DNA from: a virus
Length of the DNA: 45,333 nucleotides
IMG/VR virus record: IMGVR_UViG_3300047494_000194
Location: 1 to 45,333 of that record
Reading direction: 5' to 3' (one strand)
The translations under genes were made by a program, and so were the position numbers. Below, in pieces: positions 25,418 through 44,739 of the stretch. The notes beneath the pieces were generated by a model, which worked only from the letters and a program-made list of their open reading frames with translations, was not told the DNA's origin and ran no database searches. Numbering within the stretch: position 1 is the stretch's first letter; each line of letters begins with the position of its first letter.

Positions 25418-25697
25418 AGGAAGCCCGTCCGCTCGAAACCAGCTTGTCCAGACGGTAGTACGTGCCGTGCTTCACCAGGTATTCCCGGCAGCCGACGCGG
25501 GTGTACTTCTCAAAACCTGCGGCCTTGATACCCTTCGGCAACGCGACACGGTCCCATATCCTGGCCATGTGGCGGAACTTCTCCAGCCAGACCTTTGAAC
25601 GTTTAGGCGTCTGAACGTCCTCGGCCTTCTCGCGCCGGGCCGATGGGCGATCGAACGATAGCATTGCCGAAAGCCTGCCAAATAATCCAAGTCTCAT
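25410..25697 (-). CDS. small basic protein before portal
   Basis: 95 aa from ATG 25697 with GGAGGAG five to six bases upstream. It is Arg/Lys-rich. The segment encoded at 25596-25619 (VQTPKRSKV) is built from an 8-bp repeat array found at other loci, so part of this protein may be repeat-derived. Function unknown. Confidence 0.6.
   Translation of the reverse strand: MRLGLFGRLSAMLSFDRPSARREKAEDVQTPKRSKVWLEKFRHMARIWDRVALPKGIKAAGFEKYTRVGCREYLVKHGTYYRLDKLVSSGRASFA
25596..25619 (-). repeat. phased octamer array A (3 units)
   Basis: Minus strand reads GACGTTCA, GACGCCTA, AACGTTCA, three tandem units with exact 8-bp period fitting RRCGYYYA. It lies inside the coding sequence of the 95-aa gene. Same family as arrays at 30415, 31986, 36785 and 37894. 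Confidence 0.7.
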
Positions 25698-31469: not shown

Positions 31470-32022
31470 CAGCATCCCCCACAATCCGAAAACTCGTACC
31501 GCCATACGCCGCCTTGCTGCGCAGCAGAATCGCCGCCCCCGTGAACGTCGCCCGTCTCAGCGTCCAGAGGTTCGCTCGCATATCGACCACATGCGCATCG
31601 GCCAGCTCGTAGCTCATGCCGAGCTCTTTGCCTTTGTCCGCACGCGAAGCGTCCAACACCGAACGAAGTTCCGGGAAATCCCTGGCGAAGAGGTAGCCGC
31701 TCACCATCAGCCGCTTCGCTTCCAGCTGCGCCCCGGTGATGATCCCGATCTTCTGCCTGGCGTTGTGCCCGTCCCACCCCGCTTTGTAATCTACCGCCAT
31801 GCCCATCAGGCTCGGCAGCGCCGCCTCGGCCGCCGCACGCGTCAACACCACGCGATGCCCGCGCGCCCCGCTGGGTGCCTTATCGCTCGCCTGGTCAACC
31901 AGCGTCAGGCATCCCCGAAACGCCAGCCGGTTCGGATGCCCGTGCACCACCGGCATCTCGATCGCCGCGCTAATCCGTTTGAGGCAGACCGCTTGAACGT
32001 CTGAACGCTTAGGCGTCTTCAA
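31447..32022 (-). CDS. prohead-protease-like protein (uncertain)
   Basis: 191 aa from TTG 32020-32022, overlapping the upstream TGA, with GAGG eight bases upstream. The pattern GHNARQKIGIITGAQLEAKRLMVSGYLFARDFPE then LGMSYELADAHVVDM, TFTGAAILLRSKAAY resembles a head-maturation protease, with candidate Ser137, His86 and His144. I do not have a firm family match. The first ~10 codons (TPKRSDVQ) fall in an octamer repeat array. Confidence 0.5.
   Translation of the reverse strand: MKTPKRSDVQAVCLKRISAAIEMPVVHGHPNRLAFRGCLTLVDQASDKAPSGARGHRVVLTRAAAEAALPSLMGMAVDYKAGWDGHNARQKIGIITGAQLEAKRLMVSGYLFARDFPELRSVLDASRADKGKELGMSYELADAHVVDMRANLWTLRRATFTGAAILLRSKAAYGGTSFRIVGDADEDSKIA
31986..32017 (-). repeat. 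phased octamer array C (4 units)
   Basis: Minus strand gives GACGCCTA, AGCGTTCA, GACGTTCA, AGCGGTCT in exact 8-bp tandem register at the start of the protease-like gene. Same family as the arrays at the par locus. Confidence 0.75.
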
Positions 32023-34046: not shown

Positions 34047-34550
34047 GCCCCCAAAATTACGCCCAAAGAGAAATCTGCCGGCGTCCGCCCGGCGGCCCAG
34101 AATCGGCGATCGACCCACCGTCACATCAGCATGTTTGGCGGCCTGCAGCATATGCTGCAGCGTCTCCGCCAGCCGCAGCAGCTCCGATGGCCGCATCTCG
34201 AGCGCGGCTGCCACCCTCTCCAGGTTCCACAGGGTAGGCATAGCCTTGTCGTTCTCGATCTTCGAAATGTACGTTCGCGGACACCCCATCCGCCGCGCCA
34301 GCTTCCGCTGCGGCAATCCCAGCTCCACCCGCACCGCCCAGAGCACCAGGGCCAGCGCCTGGCGCAGCAGCTCGCCCGAAGGGGTCTTAGGGCGTTTCAC
34401 GCGCACTGTGCGCCCTGCCGGCACCGGCACCGGCAACGGCCGCGGCTCCCGCAACAACGAACGCTTACAACGCCGGCACACCTGTGCGGCCGTCTCGAAC
34501 TGCACCAGGCGGCACCGCCGGCAGCGCACCGTCTTCCGATCGGGAGTCAC
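34035..34550 (-). CDS. zinc-ribbon plus XRE-HTH regulator
   Basis: 171 aa. Cys10/Cys13 and Cys25/Cys28 form a CxxC-x11-CxxC zinc ribbon. After a Pro/Arg linker, an XRE-type HTH covers ~66-120 (ELGLPQRKLARRMGCPRTYISKIENDKAMPTLWNLERVAAAL). The combination is uncommon. It is the last gene of the early leftward block and lies next to the late control region, so a late-gene switch is a reasonable guess. Start ATG overlaps the KH gene stop (ATGA). Confidence 0.75.
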   Translation of the reverse strand: MTPDRKTVRCRRCRLVQFETAAQVCRRCKRSLLREPRPLPVPVPAGRTVRVKRPKTPSGELLRQALALVLWAVRVELGLPQRKLARRMGCPRTYISKIENDKAMPTLWNLERVAAALEMRPSELLRLAETLQHMLQAAKHADVTVGRSPILGRRADAGRFLFGRNFGGLYI

Positions 34551-34855
34551 AGAACCGCACCCGATTCCGCCCGCGCCACAAAGTTCACCTCATACCGCAG
34601 GCCATACTTCGCGGCCGTCGCGCCGATGATCGTCCGCAACGCTCTCGCCGTCCTTCCCTGCTTGCCAATCACCTTGCCGAGATCCGCGTGCGCCACGGCG
34701 ACCGTGAACTCCGCGTAATCCGGCTCCCCAGCCTCCTGCCGGATCATCACCAGCTCCGGTGAGTCCACCAGCTCCGAGACCATCGCCCGCGCCAGCAGCA
34801 GCAACCGGCTCCTCCCGTCCCCTATCCCTATCCCAACTGCCTCGCACTCAACCAT
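34547..34855 (-). CDS. KH-domain RNA-binding protein (KhpA-like)
   Basis: 102 aa, ATG 34855 with AAGGAG about ten bases upstream. The single KH domain (~33-100) has the conserved ADLGKVIGKQGRTARALRTIIGA with the GxxG loop GKQG at 64-67, as in bacterial KhpA/YlqC. Such proteins bind single-stranded RNA and help mRNA or sRNA regulation. A host-type RNA chaperone in a phage early operon is unusual; it could modulate phage or host transcripts. KhpA partner domains (KhpB/Jag) are not seen here. Confidence 0.8.
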   Translation of the reverse strand: MVECEAVGIGIGDGRSRLLLLARAMVSELVDSPELVMIRQEAGEPDYAEFTVAVAHADLGKVIGKQGRTARALRTIIGATAAKYGLRYEVNFVARAESGAVL

Positions 34856-36205: not shown

Positions 36206-36336
36206 CACTTGCCTCCCTTTCTCAACTGCTCCGTCCGCCACTGCTCTTGCTCTCGCCGATTCCGTCGTAGCGAATTCCATCGCTCCAACTGATGCAGAAA
36301 CCAGCCCATCGCCAACCCAAACAGGATGTACTTCAT
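36205..36336 (-). CDS. 43-aa membrane microprotein
   Basis: MKYILFGLAMGWFLHQLERWNSL forms one short membrane helix, followed by a basic tail (RRNRREQEQ). It has an AAGGG upstream, overlaps the previous stop and ends as TGATG with the next gene. Too small for a known family; may tether early proteins at the membrane. Confidence 0.55.
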   Translation of the reverse strand: MKYILFGLAMGWFLHQLERWNSLRRNRREQEQWRTEQLRKGGK

Positions 36337-36773
36337 CGCCCGAACCCTTCCATCCACGCCGCATCGCCCGCCAGGATCACCAGCCGCGTCCAGGGCGCCG
36401 GATCCGGCACACCCGTCAGCACCACGAAGGCGTGCAGCACGCCCGGAATATTCAGGCTCGGGTTCAGCGTCCACACGCCCCCGCCCAGCGGGATCGCCTG
36501 AAACCGCACCAGCGCGCCGTCCACCATCTCCGGTTCCTCGCCCGACACCGGCACCGTCAGCGGATCCGAATCGCCCAGCAGCAAAACCAGCGCGCCCGTC
36601 TCCGGATCCCACCCGGCCCCGAGGCCCGTGTCCTCATCCGCCAGCCAGGGGCCGCCGTCTCCCCAGCGCACCACAAGCTGGCACACCGCACGCGACGGAT
36701 CGCCCATCTTCAAGGCCGCCTCCGTCACAAACTGGTACAGCTCCTCGCGACTCGCAATCACACTCGTAAACAT
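36333..36773 (-). CDS. uncharacterised protein after par module
   Basis: 146 aa, beta-rich, many Gly/Pro/Trp (WGDGGPWLADEDTGLGAGWDPETGALVLLLG). Preceded by GGAGG. It follows the RHH gene after a 24-base gap that contains octamer repeats. No family recognised. Confidence 0.55.
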   Translation of the reverse strand: MFTSVIASREELYQFVTEAALKMGDPSRAVCQLVVRWGDGGPWLADEDTGLGAGWDPETGALVLLLGDSDPLTVPVSGEEPEMVDGALVRFQAIPLGGGVWTLNPSLNIPGVLHAFVVLTGVPDPAPWTRLVILAGDAAWMEGFGR

Positions 36774-36784
36774 CCAGCCTCCTC

Positions 36785-36808
36785 AGCATTCAAACGTCTA
36801 AGCGTTCA
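36785..36808 (+). repeat. phased octamer array D, downstream edge of par module
   Basis: AGCATTCA, AACGTCTA, AGCGTTCA in exact 8-bp register, overlapping the RHH gene stop. With the array at 37894-37925 it brackets the parA/RHH operon, similar in layout to partition sites on some plasmids. Confidence 0.7.
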
Positions 36809-37085
36809 AGTACCGTTCCAGCAGCTCTTCCACCAGGTCCGAGAAGTCGCCGCCCCGCGCGTCCTCCCACTTCCGCTCCGCCCGCTTCCGCGTCTCGGTG
36901 CGCACATACACCGTCCGCCGCTCCCACTCCGGATCCACGCTCTTCGCCAGCTTCGCGCCTCGCGCAATGACGGCCCCTGGTACCGGCTTCGCGCCGGTCA
37001 AGGCCGTCGTGAACCTCTTCGGCACCGGCTCGCTCTCCGGCCGCAATCCCGCCAGCGCGGTCTTCAAGGTGCTCACGGTCTTCAT
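36798..37085 (-). CDS. ribbon-helix-helix protein, ParA partner candidate
   Basis: 95 aa. The C-terminal half (ERRTVYVRTETRKRAERKWEDARGGDFSDLVEELLERYL, ~55-93) fits a ribbon-helix-helix DNA-binding fold; the N-terminal half is a flexible basic arm (KRFTTALTGAKP). ParG- and omega-type partition proteins have exactly this arm-plus-RHH layout and bind short tandem repeats. It starts as ATGA over the 33-aa ORF and lies two genes after parA. Its stop falls in an octamer array. Centromere-binding is inferred. Confidence 0.7.
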   Translation of the reverse strand: MKTVSTLKTALAGLRPESEPVPKRFTTALTGAKPVPGAVIARGAKLAKSVDPEWERRTVYVRTETRKRAERKWEDARGGDFSDLVEELLERYLNA

Positions 37086-37183
37086 GGCTCGTTCTCCCAG
37101 TTCTCGACATCCTCGCGCTGGGTGAACTTCACCAGGTGAACCGTCTGCCCGGTGTTCGGCAGGTACTTGACGTCGATGCTCAT
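37082..37183 (-). CDS. 33-aa micro-ORF between parA and RHH genes
   Basis: MSIDVKYLPNTGQTVHLVKF...ENWENEP. ATGA overlaps join it to parA upstream and to the RHH gene downstream. Its codons give a mixed, protein-like composition. Could be a small partition accessory or only a coupling ORF. Confidence 0.55.
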   Translation of the reverse strand: MSIDVKYLPNTGQTVHLVKFTQREDVENWENEP

Positions 37184-37776
37184 GCCCTCAGCTCCTTCCC
37201 GGCCGCCACATACGCCGCCCACGCCCGCGCCGCGTTCTCGTCCTTCACGTCGCGCACGATCAGCCCCAGCCCCGCAGCCTTTTCGAACGCCTTCAGCCGC
37301 GGGATCTCCGCCCTGAACACCGGAACGTTCATCTCGCGCAGCAGCCCCCGCAACTCCGCCGCCGCGCCGGCCGCATCCGGAGCCACCATCGTCAGCAGCA
37401 CCTTGAAGTTCGCCGCGCCCAGGCTCTGCAGCGTGCGGATCGTCTGTCCCAGGCCATCCGTATCCAGCGCCGAAGGCTTCGCCGGAATCACCACCAGCTC
37501 CGATTGCTCGGCCGCCTCGCGCACGGTGTCTTCGCCCGATGCCTGGCCGGTATCGGCCACAACATGCGTGAACACAGCCCCCAGCCTCGCCGCGCCCGTC
37601 GTCGACGCCACCTTGAACGGCAGGCCGCTGCCCCGGCGCGACCAGGCCGTCGCATTCCTGGTCTTGTCGTCATCCAGCAGCAGCGTCGGCTTCAACGTCT
37701 GCAGATACGCCGCCAGGTGCACCGCCGTCGTCGTCTTACCCACGCCACCCTTGCTGCTCAGCACCGTGACGATCAT
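37180..37776 (-). CDS. parA: ParA-family partition ATPase
   Basis: 198 aa, a short type Ib-like ParA without an N-terminal HTH. Deviant Walker A KGGVGKTT (9-16, signature Lys9 and Lys14), a DDDKTRNATAWSR region (switch I), VVADTGQASGED, and LVVIPAKPSALDTDG (~95-110). Such ATPases move DNA by patterning on the nucleoid with an RHH partner. Here the ATG overlaps a 24-aa leader ORF, and a small ORF and the RHH gene follow. Presence in a prophage with integrases suggests a plasmid phase or a role in lysogen stability. Confidence 0.85.
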   Translation of the reverse strand: MIVTVLSSKGGVGKTTTAVHLAAYLQTLKPTLLLDDDKTRNATAWSRRGSGLPFKVASTTGAARLGAVFTHVVADTGQASGEDTVREAAEQSELVVIPAKPSALDTDGLGQTIRTLQSLGAANFKVLLTMVAPDAAGAAAELRGLLREMNVPVFRAEIPRLKAFEKAAGLGLIVRDVKDENAARAWAAYVAAGKELRA

Positions 37777-37847
37777 GGCCGCACCGCCGCAGTCGCCAAC
37801 TTCTCTTCCTGCTCAAGCCACTCCCGCTGCTCGCGTGTCTCCGTCAT
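37773..37847 (-). CDS. 24-aa leader micro-ORF before parA
   Basis: MTETREQREWLEQEEKLATAAVRP with GGGAG seven bases upstream; the TGA overlaps the parA ATG (ATGA). Highly charged helix. Could control parA by translational coupling. Confidence 0.5.
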   Translation of the reverse strand: MTETREQREWLEQEEKLATAAVRP

Positions 37848-37863
37848 CTTCGCTCTCCCTCAC

Positions 37864-37885
37864 TGCTCTGGTGTGCTGCTCTGGT
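37864..37885. repeat. direct repeat CTGCTCTGGT, two copies
   Basis: Identical 10-mers at 37864-37873 and 37876-37885, 12 bp apart, between the parA leader and the octamer array. Possible operator or extra partition repeats. Confidence 0.4.
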
Positions 37886-37893
37886 ATCGGGGA

Positions 37894-37925
37894 AACGCCT
37901 GCGCGCCTAAACGTCTAAGCGGTCA
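37894..37925 (+). repeat. phased octamer array E upstream of par module
   Basis: AACGCCTG, CGCGCCTA, AACGTCTA, AGCGGTCA in exact 8-bp tandem register, overlapping the stop of the initiator gene and lying about 50 bp upstream of the parA leader. Tandem 7-8-bp repeats are what omega/ParG-like RHH dimers bind, so this is the best parS/operator candidate. Confidence 0.7.
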
Positions 37926-39392
37926 GGTTCTTACCATGTAGTACAAACTCAACCGCGGGGCGCCTCGCGCCTTCATCAGCTCGCGCTCAACAAACTGGGT
38001 GCGCACCTGGTCGAGCTGGTCTTTGTTCATCCGGCCCTTGTACCTGGATAGCTCGAAGTCGGCCTTTGCCTCGAGGGCCGCCAGCTCGTAGTTCAACACC
38101 TTGTCCCGCAGCTCCGCGACGACCTCCTCTTCGATTGCCTGCAGCTCACGGTCGAGATCCTCGAGAAGCATCTTGCCCACGGCCGCCGCCAGCTCGCCCA
38201 GCCGGAGCCCGAATCGCGGATCGCACCCGGCCTCGTCCAGTGCCGTCGCGTTGCGGTCGATGAACGCGGCGAGCTCCTCGTTTGAGAATCTCCCACTCTT
38301 CACGCTCTCGGCCGGCACATGCACACCGACCGCGGCCTGGCCCCGCGCTGCCTGCTTCGCCTGGTCCCACGGCCAGGTTCCCGGGTCCTCCCAGTACGGG
38401 TTCTCGAAGAACGTCCGCGCCTTCCACGGCCCGAACCGAAGCAGCCCGGAAGCCAACGCCGCATGGTAATCGCGGAAGTTCTTCACCGCCAGCGTCGCAA
38501 TTGCGACCAGCCCATGCCCCGTGCGCTTCGCGCGCCGCGTCAGCGCCGCCTCGAGTCCCGACTTCAGCCGCGAGTTCAGCCCCAGCCCGCACTCGCCCAT
38601 CAGCCAGCGCGCCGCGATCCCGGCCTCGTCGGCGAAGCCCGGGTGGTTGTGCGTGACATCCCCGAACGGAAGATCCGAAACCACGCCCCCGCTTGCGGGG
38701 GTTGGGGGGGCTTTGGTCTCAATGGGAGAATAATGGGTTAATACATTAAAGGGCTCGCCCTCAATGTCACTTGTCACATGACAGGGTTGGCACGTGACAT
38801 GTGACATTTTGTCACCTGCAGAATCCTCCTCCGCGGTCGCGGAACCCCCGGTTTCAGCCCTTTTCGCCGCGATCGGCGACTCCGGAGCCAGATTGGCCCC
38901 GTTTGGAGCCGTTTCCGCCTCGTTTGCAAGTGACAAAATGTCACTTGCAGATTCGTCGTAGAACAGATTCCCGGAAGCCGCGATATCCACGCTCTGCGGG
39001 GTCTTTTCGAACTTCAGCACCCCATTCAGAAGTGACACTTTGTCACGTGACTCCAGGGCTCGCATCAGCCGCTCAAAGTTCTGCCACAGCGGGCTGCGGC
39101 GGCTCTTCTCGTTCGGCTTCACGCCCAGCTTCGGCAGATCCACAAAGTAGGCGTTGGCCATCGATCCGCGGAACACCTTCCGCTTCACCTTCAGCCAGCC
39201 CTGCTCCTCCAGCTCCGCGATCCGCCGTATCGCCTGGCGCACACTGCAACGGCTTCCATGCGCGATCGATTCGATCGACGGACACGCAAAGCCGAAGTCG
39301 TCCGCTTCATCGCAGATGACCATCAGCGTGTGATTCAGCGAGCCCTTCGCAGGGCCCCGCTGCTTCACCGCACCTGTCAACATCACGCTCAA
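37923..39392 (-). CDS. replication-initiator-like HTH protein
   Basis: 489 aa. The N-terminus (~20-90) is a winged HTH (HTLMVICDEADDFGFACPSIESIAHGSRCSVRQAIRRIAELEEQGWLKVKRK) as in lambda O-like and plasmid initiators. A long unstructured linker (~110-245) is rich in Ser/Thr/Pro. The C-terminal part (~245-489) is helical, with ARTFFENPYW, and may contact host helicase or loader. The linker DNA contains repeats and an AT-rich patch (38721-39051), as in lambda O. No phage helicase, primase or polymerase is visible, so host replication is probably recruited. Confidence 0.7.
   Translation of the reverse strand: MSVMLTGAVKQRGPAKGSLNHTLMVICDEADDFGFACPSIESIAHGSRCSVRQAIRRIAELEEQGWLKVKRKVFRGSMANAYFVDLPKLGVKPNEKSRRSPLWQNFERLMRALESRDKVSLLNGVLKFEKTPQSVDIAASGNLFYDESASDILSLANEAETAPNGANLAPESPIAAKRAETGGSATAEEDSAGDKMSHVTCQPCHVTSDIEGEPFNVLTHYSPIETKAPPTPASGGVVSDLPFGDVTHNHPGFADEAGIAARWLMGECGLGLNSRLKSGLEAALTRRAKRTGHGLVAIATLAVKNFRDYHAALASGLLRFGPWKARTFFENPYWEDPGTWPWDQAKQAARGQAAVGVHVPAESVKSGRFSNEELAAFIDRNATALDEAGCDPRFGLRLGELAAAVGKMLLEDLDRELQAIEEEVVAELRDKVLNYELAALEAKADFELSRYKGRMNKDQLDQVRTQFVERELMKARGAPRLSLYYMVRT
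38653..39051. other. candidate replication origin inside the initiator gene
   Basis: Three dyads GTGACA-N3-TGTCAC occur at 38801-38815, 38930-38944 and 39032-39046. The middle one extends to a 10-bp perfect inverted repeat around AAA (38926-38948). Extra half-sites lie at 38653, 38765, 38772, 38794 and 39047. A 30-bp AT-rich patch (38721-38750) lies beside them, and a CCCCCG/CGGGGG hairpin at 38686-38701. This iteron-plus-melting-element layout in an initiator linker matches lambda-type origins. Confidence 0.6.
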
Positions 39393-43176: not shown

Positions 43177-43419
43177 ATGCTTTCGAACCTCCGCAGCTTC
43201 CCCCACGCCAAGCCCCCCGCGAAGATCCGCGCGCTCGAGCTCTACCACACCATCCGCCAGGTAGCCGAGCGCCTCCACGCCGGCGAGTCCACCGTCAAGC
43301 GCTGGATCTCCACCGGCCGGCTCCGCCCCACCAAGATCGGCGACCGCACCCTCGTCACCGAGACCGATCTCCAGGCCTTTGTCCGCGCCTGCAATCCCGG
43401 CCAGGAAGCGCCTCGCTGA
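43177..43419 (+). CDS. excisionase-like HTH protein
   Basis: 80 aa. A MerR/HTH_17-type domain (~24-70: TIRQVAERLHAGESTVKRWISTGRLRPTKIGDRTLVTETDLQAFVRA) typical of excisionase-family proteins, placed directly before int. It probably steers the right integrase toward excision. Confidence 0.75.
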   Translation: MLSNLRSFPHAKPPAKIRALELYHTIRQVAERLHAGESTVKRWISTGRLRPTKIGDRTLVTETDLQAFVRACNPGQEAPR

Positions 43420-43432
43420 TAGCATTGCCTGC

Positions 43433-44554
43433 ATGCGCATCTACCGCCGCGGCAAGGTCTACTGGTACGAACTCATCTTCCGCGGCGAACGTTTCCAGCG
43501 CAGCTCCGGTTCGAAAAACAGGCGGCTCGCCGGCGAACTCGCCTCCGCCTTCCACACCTCGCTGCTCAAGGGCGAAGCCGGCATCGTCGAACGCAAAAAG
43601 CCCCCCGCCCTCGATGTCGCCATGAAGGCCTTCCTCGCCTGGTCGAAGCTTGAGCACGCCGCCAGCCCGCTCACCGCGAAACGCTCCGTCACCAGCTCCC
43701 GGCCGCTGCTCAAACACTTCGGGAAGATCTCGCTCGATCGCATCTCCGCCCAGGATGTCGAAGCCTACAAACAAGCCCGTTCCGCCCAGCTCGCCCGCGG
43801 CACCACACGCAAGGTAAAGCCCGCCACCGTCAACCGCGAACTCGCCTGCCTGCGCGAGATGTTCAACCACGCCATCAAGGGCCACCCGGATCTCCGTAAC
43901 CCCGTCAGCAAGGTCAAGTTCCTCGCCGAGAACTCCCAGAAGGACCGCGTCCTCACCTACGCCGAACAGCGCGCCTACCTCGCCGCCGCCACCGACACGC
44001 TCTTCGACGTGGCCACCATCATCCTCGAAACCGGCATGCGCCCGGAAGAGGTCTACACCCTGCGCACGTCGCAGATACACCTGGACCGCGGCTTCCTCCA
44101 GGTCGTCAAAGGGAAGACCAAAGCCGCCAGGCGCCGGATCGAGCTCACGGCCGAATGCCGCCGCGTCCTCGCCGAGCGCGTCGAGCGCGCCAGGTCGGCC
44201 AGGCCTGGCACCGGCCTGCTCTTCCCCTGTGAGACCGACCCGCAGCGCCCCATCCCAAAGGTCTCGAACGCCCACGAACGCGCCGTGCGCGATTCCGGCG
44301 TGCCTCGCTTCGTCCCTTACGATCTCCGCCACACATGGGCCACCCGCGCCGCCGAGAGCGGGGTCGACCTGGTCACGCTCGCCGCTATGATGGGCCACAG
44401 CCGCATCCAGATGGTCCTGCGCTACGCGCACCCGACCCAGACGCATCAGACCAGCGCCACGCGCCTTCTGGAGGCCTACAACGCCAGGCGCGAGGCGGAA
44501 GAACAGCGCCTCGGCGTCCCCGATCCGAAGCTGTACCTGCGCCGCCCGGCCTGA
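43433..44554 (+). CDS. int: tyrosine integrase (right end)
   Basis: 373 aa from ATG 43433; earlier in-frame starts lie inside xis. N-terminal arm-binding region (~1-50, VYWYELIFRGERFQRSSG), core-binding domain (~55-160), catalytic domain with Arg203 (ETGMRPEE), Lys228 (VKGKTK), Arg299 and His300 (YDLRHTW; the usual first His is Tyr296), His322 (MGHSR) and nucleophile Tyr331 (RYAHP). The gene lies next to attR with xis in front, the usual arrangement for the enzyme that integrated this phage. Confidence 0.9.
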   Translation: MRIYRRGKVYWYELIFRGERFQRSSGSKNRRLAGELASAFHTSLLKGEAGIVERKKPPALDVAMKAFLAWSKLEHAASPLTAKRSVTSSRPLLKHFGKISLDRISAQDVEAYKQARSAQLARGTTRKVKPATVNRELACLREMFNHAIKGHPDLRNPVSKVKFLAENSQKDRVLTYAEQRAYLAAATDTLFDVATIILETGMRPEEVYTLRTSQIHLDRGFLQVVKGKTKAARRRIELTAECRRVLAERVERARSARPGTGLLFPCETDPQRPIPKVSNAHERAVRDSGVPRFVPYDLRHTWATRAAESGVDLVTLAAMMGHSRIQMVLRYAHPTQTHQTSATRLLEAYNARREAEEQRLGVPDPKLYLRRPA

Positions 44555-44563
44555 ACCGAAATT

Positions 44564-44582
44564 GTAGGGGAATTTGTAGGGG
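44564..44582 (+). repeat. arm-type site candidate near attR
   Basis: 19-bp pair of GTAGGGG units, one base different from 759-777 and in the same orientation, ten bases after the int stop. Confidence 0.55.
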
Positions 44583-44590
44583 CTCCCTGC

Positions 44591-44676
44591 GTCTCCCTGA
44601 GTCTCCCTGCGTCTCACCCAACCCACGAAACCCCCGTCAATGAGCCACAGGGAGACTTACTGAGACTTAGGGAGAC
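44591..44676. repeat. 10-bp-phased GTCTC/GAGAC inverted repeats beside attR
   Basis: GTCTC starts at 44591, 44601 and 44611; GAGAC starts at 44652, 44662 and 44672. Both sets have exact 10-bp spacing and face each other, so the sites lie on one side of the helix. They lie between int and the attR core, where integrase arm and Xis sites are expected. Confidence 0.65.
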
Positions 44677-44685
44677 TACCCCACT

Positions 44686-44739
44686 AGAGGTCTGCAAAAC
44701 CTTTATGCGTCGGTTCGATCCCGACCCGCGCCTCCACAC
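44686..44739. repeat. attR: attR core, partial tRNA-Cys copy
   Basis: Exact copy of 662-715. It has the anticodon arm to CCA of tRNA-Cys but lacks the 5' half, so it is not a tRNA gene. Marks the right end of the prophage. Confidence 0.95.

Follow-up and report, generated by a model that had tools for sequence, protein, structure and literature searches.

We find that an integrated temperate phage in all likelihood carries a type Ib (ParF/ParG-like) partition module, in which an RHH protein would act on the octamer boxes that flank its operon as candidate sites. The analysis covers the whole 45,333 bases of IMG/VR virus record IMGVR_UViG_3300047494_000194 (hereafter, the window). The operon and the arrays of boxes occur together on true plasmids, mostly at par, and the box covaries with a strand residue of the RHH partner. 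It is therefore very probable that this protein binds the arrays as its parS, centromere or operator.

A Coupled Par Operon in an Integrated Prophage

A repeat comparison within the window revealed two identical 53-bp repeats on the + strand, at 663–715 (attL, which is the 3′ part of a tRNA-Cys) and 44687–44739 (attR). A secretin fragment lies beyond the left repeat and an MsrA gene beyond the right one. Thus, the window is an integrated prophage of ~44 kb in tRNA-Cys, as the first-pass annotation had recognized, and this copy sits between its att repeats, not outside the chromosome. Other phage genes in the window are a portal gene, terminase genes and a CI-like repressor. The tyrosine integrases found at both prophage ends, at 797–1705 (− strand; PHROG 1, 1e-37) and 43433–44554 (+ strand; PF00589, 7e-24 on the longer ORF 43379–44554), differ from each other. 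Short tandem repeats of 10 and 12 bp are present beside attR (44558–44682).

The early region reads entirely on the − strand, in the order O-like initiator, 24-aa leader, parA, 33-aa ORF, rhh and a 146-aa gene. ATGA overlaps join the leader (37773–37847), parA (37180–37776), the 33-aa ORF (37082–37183) and rhh (36798–37085); those on either side of the 33-aa ORF lie at 37180–37183 and 37082–37085. This ORF is not general, being missing or replaced in relatives. The initiator, a phage O-like replication initiation protein with HTH_36 (37923–39392; PF13730, 1e-8; PHROG 391, 1e-9), is the upstream neighbor of par in relatives too (L005, L007, L008, L085 and L091, by tblastn). Four phage relatives (L002, L003, L008 and L085) have retained the 146-aa gene (36333–36773) directly behind rhh and its array. 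No sigma-70 promoters or terminators were found at par. A toxin-antitoxin reading of the locus was dropped, as no toxin-like gene adjoins rhh.

The parA product is 198 aa long, starts with MIVTVLSSKGGVGKTT, contains a deviant Walker A motif (KGGVGKTT) and has no N-terminal HTH. It matches PF01656 (9e-13), PHROG 164 "ParA-like partition protein" (7e-24) and, under that model's cut-off, NF041546 (1e-25); nearly full-length structure matches were obtained to PDB 3cwq, of the ParA family (8e-46), and to TP228 ParF (4dzz, 3e-8). Judged by these sequence features, it is a small, ParF-like (type Ib) ParA. Viral relatives were found on nine contigs (44–62% identity), and plasmid ParAs that are 40–52% identical come from Granulicella, Acidiphilium, Synechocystis, Nostoc, Thermus, Rubrobacter, Acidisoma, Planktothrix, Paludisphaera and an Abditibacteriota bacterium, with that of Granulicella (Acidobacteriota) the closest. 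Nearly all of these plasmids have a small gene overlapping parA or right behind it.

Is the 95-aa product of rhh, the candidate centromere-binding partner, an RHH protein? It is encoded directly downstream of parA and coupled to the operon through the 33-aa ORF, it is 43–54% identical to the partners of close phage relatives, and its C-terminal 45 residues align with plasmid partners. The window protein itself has no match in Pfam or PHROGs, and single-sequence searches with it against viral contigs and plasmids gave no matches. A Thermus plasmid homolog matches Omega_Repress (4e-5) and RHH_1 (0.004), and NCBI annotates a more distant partner, on Allocoleopsis pMIC7113.03, as "plasmid partition protein ParG"; compared with ParG (1p94), the homologous partner set gave an E of 0.78 only. 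An AlphaFold model of low confidence (mean pLDDT only 60) suggests a disordered tail, an extended stretch and then two C-terminal helices (63–77 and 81–93), as in an RHH monomer, and a Foldseek fold search with this model returned no significant match. The ATGA-coupled operon of a type Ib-like ParA, a 33-aa ORF and an RHH protein described in the first-pass annotation is therefore sound as to genes and overlaps, and its RHH call stands as a prediction from homologs and the low-confidence model. Searched against genome contigs, an RHH alignment retrieved two weak loci in unrelated MAGs, both without arrays; a nine-sequence alignment proved too diverse for this search. The N-terminus of the partner holds a conserved L..AFAGLK/R motif, a peptide that may contact ParA if the tail of ParG is taken as a guide (PMC7308502).

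Near the par locus lies a gene for a KhpA-like KH-domain RNA-binding protein (34547–34855, − strand; PF13083, 1.3e-17), as also in phage relatives L004 (2398–2616) and L005 (5744–5965). Such a cellular-type RNA chaperone gene seems an unusual cargo for a phage.

Degenerate Octamer Arrays at Par in the Window and on Plasmids

Arrays of octamers had been reported at both edges of the operon, at 36785–36808 and 37894–37925. Both are present and become longer when the unit is read as YRRRNNYY, an 8-bp box with dyad symmetry about its center and mostly CG in the middle. In this phase, array A4 spans 37892–37931, between the rep stop and the parA leader (five octamers, 27/30 pattern positions), and array A3, which covers the stop codon of rhh and precedes the next gene, spans 36783–36814, optionally from 36767 (four octamers, 23/24). 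We propose A3 and A4 as putative operator/centromere sites. Two distal arrays in the late/structural region had been missed, as had the 24-aa leader ORF: A2 (31986–32017), with three perfect octamers and one weak, lies just behind the stop of a 74-aa ORF, and A1 (25588–25619), with four perfect octamers (24/24), lies within a small ORF, near its 5′ end, ahead of the portal gene. The chance level was estimated from 100 dinucleotide shuffles of the window. Three YRRRCGYY units with at most 3 mismatches matched 19 times, against 2.2 expected and a shuffle maximum of 9 (0/100 shuffles reached 19), and triples with at least 22/24 positions numbered 8 against 0.12 expected. This confirms that the four arrays are real, chance giving about none.

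Phased YRRRNNYY octamers also lie beside the parA-rhh operon on Nostoc, Planktothrix, Acidisoma, Abditibacteriota and Thermus plasmids and in phage relatives. In the majority of phage relatives and of plasmids (L002–L005, L008, L012, L097–L100 and L102–L105, among others), the array score around parA was above that of every one of 300 simulations. Scores at the distant ParAs L013–L018 did not exceed the simulations, and in the wider set no clear array was found at the ParA loci L006, L013–L018, L137, L138, L140, L142 and L144. Whole replicons were then scanned for four units with one mismatch, alongside a reversed-pattern control that gave 0 throughout the plasmid set. On Abditibacteriota pIAD-21 (102.9 kb), the Acidisoma plasmid (84.7 kb) and Planktothrix p4 (61 kb), the only arrays were those at par. 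The same scan found arrays at par plus one stray match on Nostoc pTCL26-01_D, a second array besides par on Thermus pHB5002c, matches near par and ~55 kb off on Synechocystis pSYSX, and no array at par on the Rubrobacter plasmid.

Phage relatives carry arrays beside parA and inside or behind rhh, and often more away from par. In L002–L005 and in a Deinococcus plasmid (L141), an array is found within the coding sequence of the rhh linker, forming a translated centromere-like repeat. A distant phage relative (L012, record G010; ParA 35%) has at least 5 octamer arrays over 35 kb (16638–51990).

Covariation of the Octamer Sequence with a Strand Residue of the Partner

The β-strand of the partners reads X-φ-Y-φ-R/P, and residue X covaries with octamer positions 4 and 7. 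With Lys at X (n = 8), position 4 is G at a frequency of 0.92 and position 7 is C at 0.95; with Ser or Thr (n = 13), the frequencies are 0.22 and 0.17. The Lys difference persists against GC-matched Ser/Thr partners (n = 7; 0.28 and 0.15), and no difference between Lys and Ser/Thr partners is seen at position 3, another purine position. Positions 4 and 7 are dyad mates, as expected for one residue per monomer of a dimer. Partners with Lys at X come from two groups that stand apart on the ParA tree, the phage clade and the Thermus plasmids. On this tree, the window falls inside the phage Lys clade (100/99); its own partner, whose strand reads RRTVYV, has Thr at X, and the window boxes show no G4/C7 preference (0.42/0.25).

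The rule was noticed on a first set of loci, and loci were added later; those with at least 5 clean units matched the prediction (Thermus aquaticus with Lys, and three Ser/Thr plasmids, L141 weakly). The loci are related by descent, and p-values are not independent tests. Because this phylogenetic dependence remains, the covariation is strong, yet short of statistical proof, in suggesting that one strand residue sets the base preference, with Lys specifying G4/C7 and Ser/Thr not. By our reading of an alignment that has a one-residue gap there, X would match Thr29 of omega, whose part in the activity of that protein is the subject of a study cited by title in PMC9499535.

Discussion

What does a plasmid-type module do in an integrating phage? 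The first-pass annotation had taken the arrays for parS sites and the phage for one able to live as a plasmid. The plasmid-type module and, through plasmid co-occurrence and covariation, the parS/operator assignment hold up well; plasmid life fares less well. A true phage-plasmid, with the prophage maintained outside the chromosome by the module and with integration as an alternative or occasional state, seems rather unlikely to us. A rep gene adjoins par here and in relatives, the module is otherwise known from plasmids, and 8 of the 13 relative contigs show no integrase. However, these contigs are fragments, so an absent integrase means little, and the window has intact att repeats in tRNA-Cys, two integrases and an initiator of the O-like type that is common in integrating phages, with no iteron array found beside the rep gene.

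Alternatively, RHH and ParA could chiefly form a transcriptional switch for the prophage, through autorepression and control of late genes from the distal arrays, rather than in partition. The arrays at 36783, 37892 and 31986 do sit in intergenic gaps, several phage relatives have distal arrays, and omega of pSM19035 doubles as regulator and partition protein (PMC4498918). A repressor needs no ParA ATPase, however, and arrays on plasmids are largely confined to par; moreover, roles in regulation and partition are compatible, and we regard a switch in place of partition as improbable. That the arrays are host-type simple octamer repeats unrelated to the par proteins is very improbable. Array frequency outside the phage was judged on other replicons and on 246 genomes of one phylum, not on the window's own host; tandem octamers of the same loose pattern, as six-unit arrays, occurred in 15/246 of these genomes. 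The other 231 had none, and most of the chromosomal matches were near-perfect simple repeats also caught by the reversed-pattern control. The par arrays, by contrast, are degenerate with the R/Y pattern kept; they are concentrated at par in unrelated plasmids, and their sequence varies together with the partner.

In the partition reading that we favor, RHH dimers would bind cooperatively to the phased 8-bp palindromic boxes (YR-RRNNYY), one dimer per 8 bp. The two flanking arrays would probably act as operator for autorepression and as centromere, with A4, before the operon, as the operator and A3, behind it, joining A4 as centromere. The N-terminal tail, with its L..AFAGLK/R motif, probably engages and stimulates ParA, which would then carry the bound DNA across the nucleoid. 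In the late region, A1 and A2 may be extra landing sites of the RHH protein for partition, late-gene regulation or both. The arrays of the window are short, with 3–5 units; in pSM19035, ParA is fully activated only by at least 4 contiguous repeats (PMC9499535), and the window arrays are at that limit. The module would matter mainly for phage DNA that is off the chromosome, either excised or in a carrier state without integration. Its possible roles in an integrating phage are inheritance of the excised circle or carrier state, or late-gene control tied to the RHH protein.

With less than even confidence, we put forward a broader interpretation: the arrays may represent an undescribed and widespread class of partition sites, made of 8-bp near-palindromic boxes read by an RHH family through a one-residue code (Lys for G4/C7, Ser/Thr not) on plasmids of several phyla. 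Phages would have spread extra arrays into late genes and even into the rhh linker, and in an integrating prophage one protein would serve both partition and phage gene control. RHH partition centromeres are hard to spot by eye because they diverge fast. The YRRRNNYY box with its 8-bp phase, combined with the covarying strand residue, predicts the sites of many uncharacterized plasmid and phage par loci, among them those of Synechocystis pSYSX/pSYSM, and the recognition rule is testable by swapping residue or box. The window also raises the question of why a prophage that integrates should retain plasmid-type segregation, together with additional sites in the late region.

Comparison with Known Partition Systems

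Partition of type Ib is already known, as are operons with sites on either side and phages that have partition systems. The octamer-centromere family is apparently undescribed: no description of the octamer boxes or of the strand rule was found in the literature searched, outside which most subscription journals lie. The repeat of pB171 par2 differs from the window octamer, and the two are set apart by description. Like the window, pB171 par2 has sites on both sides of one parAB operon (parC1-parA-parB-parC2; element order, PMC4270457). N15 Sop resembles the window in being a partition system of a temperate phage with several centromere sites (PMC7205306; scattered sites, PMC5016525); however, N15 is a linear plasmid that does not integrate, and its Sop system relies on inverted repeats and an HTH-bearing SopB of type Ia, whereas the window is integrated and has an RHH-type partner.

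In delta/omega/parS of pSM19035, as proposed for the window, an RHH partner acts on contiguous short repeats, at several sites per replicon that overlap promoters (PMC9499535, PMC4498918). There, the repeats are 7-bp non-palindromic heptads (WATCACW) and the genes are separate, in contrast to the 8-bp near-palindromic boxes and single operon of the window. ParF-ParG-parH of TP228 shares with the window a small ParA without HTH, a small partner with a disordered tail and a C-terminal RHH (predicted in the window), and short degenerate box arrays, which in TP228 serve as centromere and operator (PMC7308502, PMC5016525). The sites of ParG consist of tetramer boxes set apart by AT-rich spacers, whereas the window arrays are continuous YRRRNNYY octamers with a CG center. 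Unlike TP228, the window has arrays on both sides of the operon plus two distal ones, extra coupled ORFs of 24 and 33 aa, and an integrated phage as its carrier.
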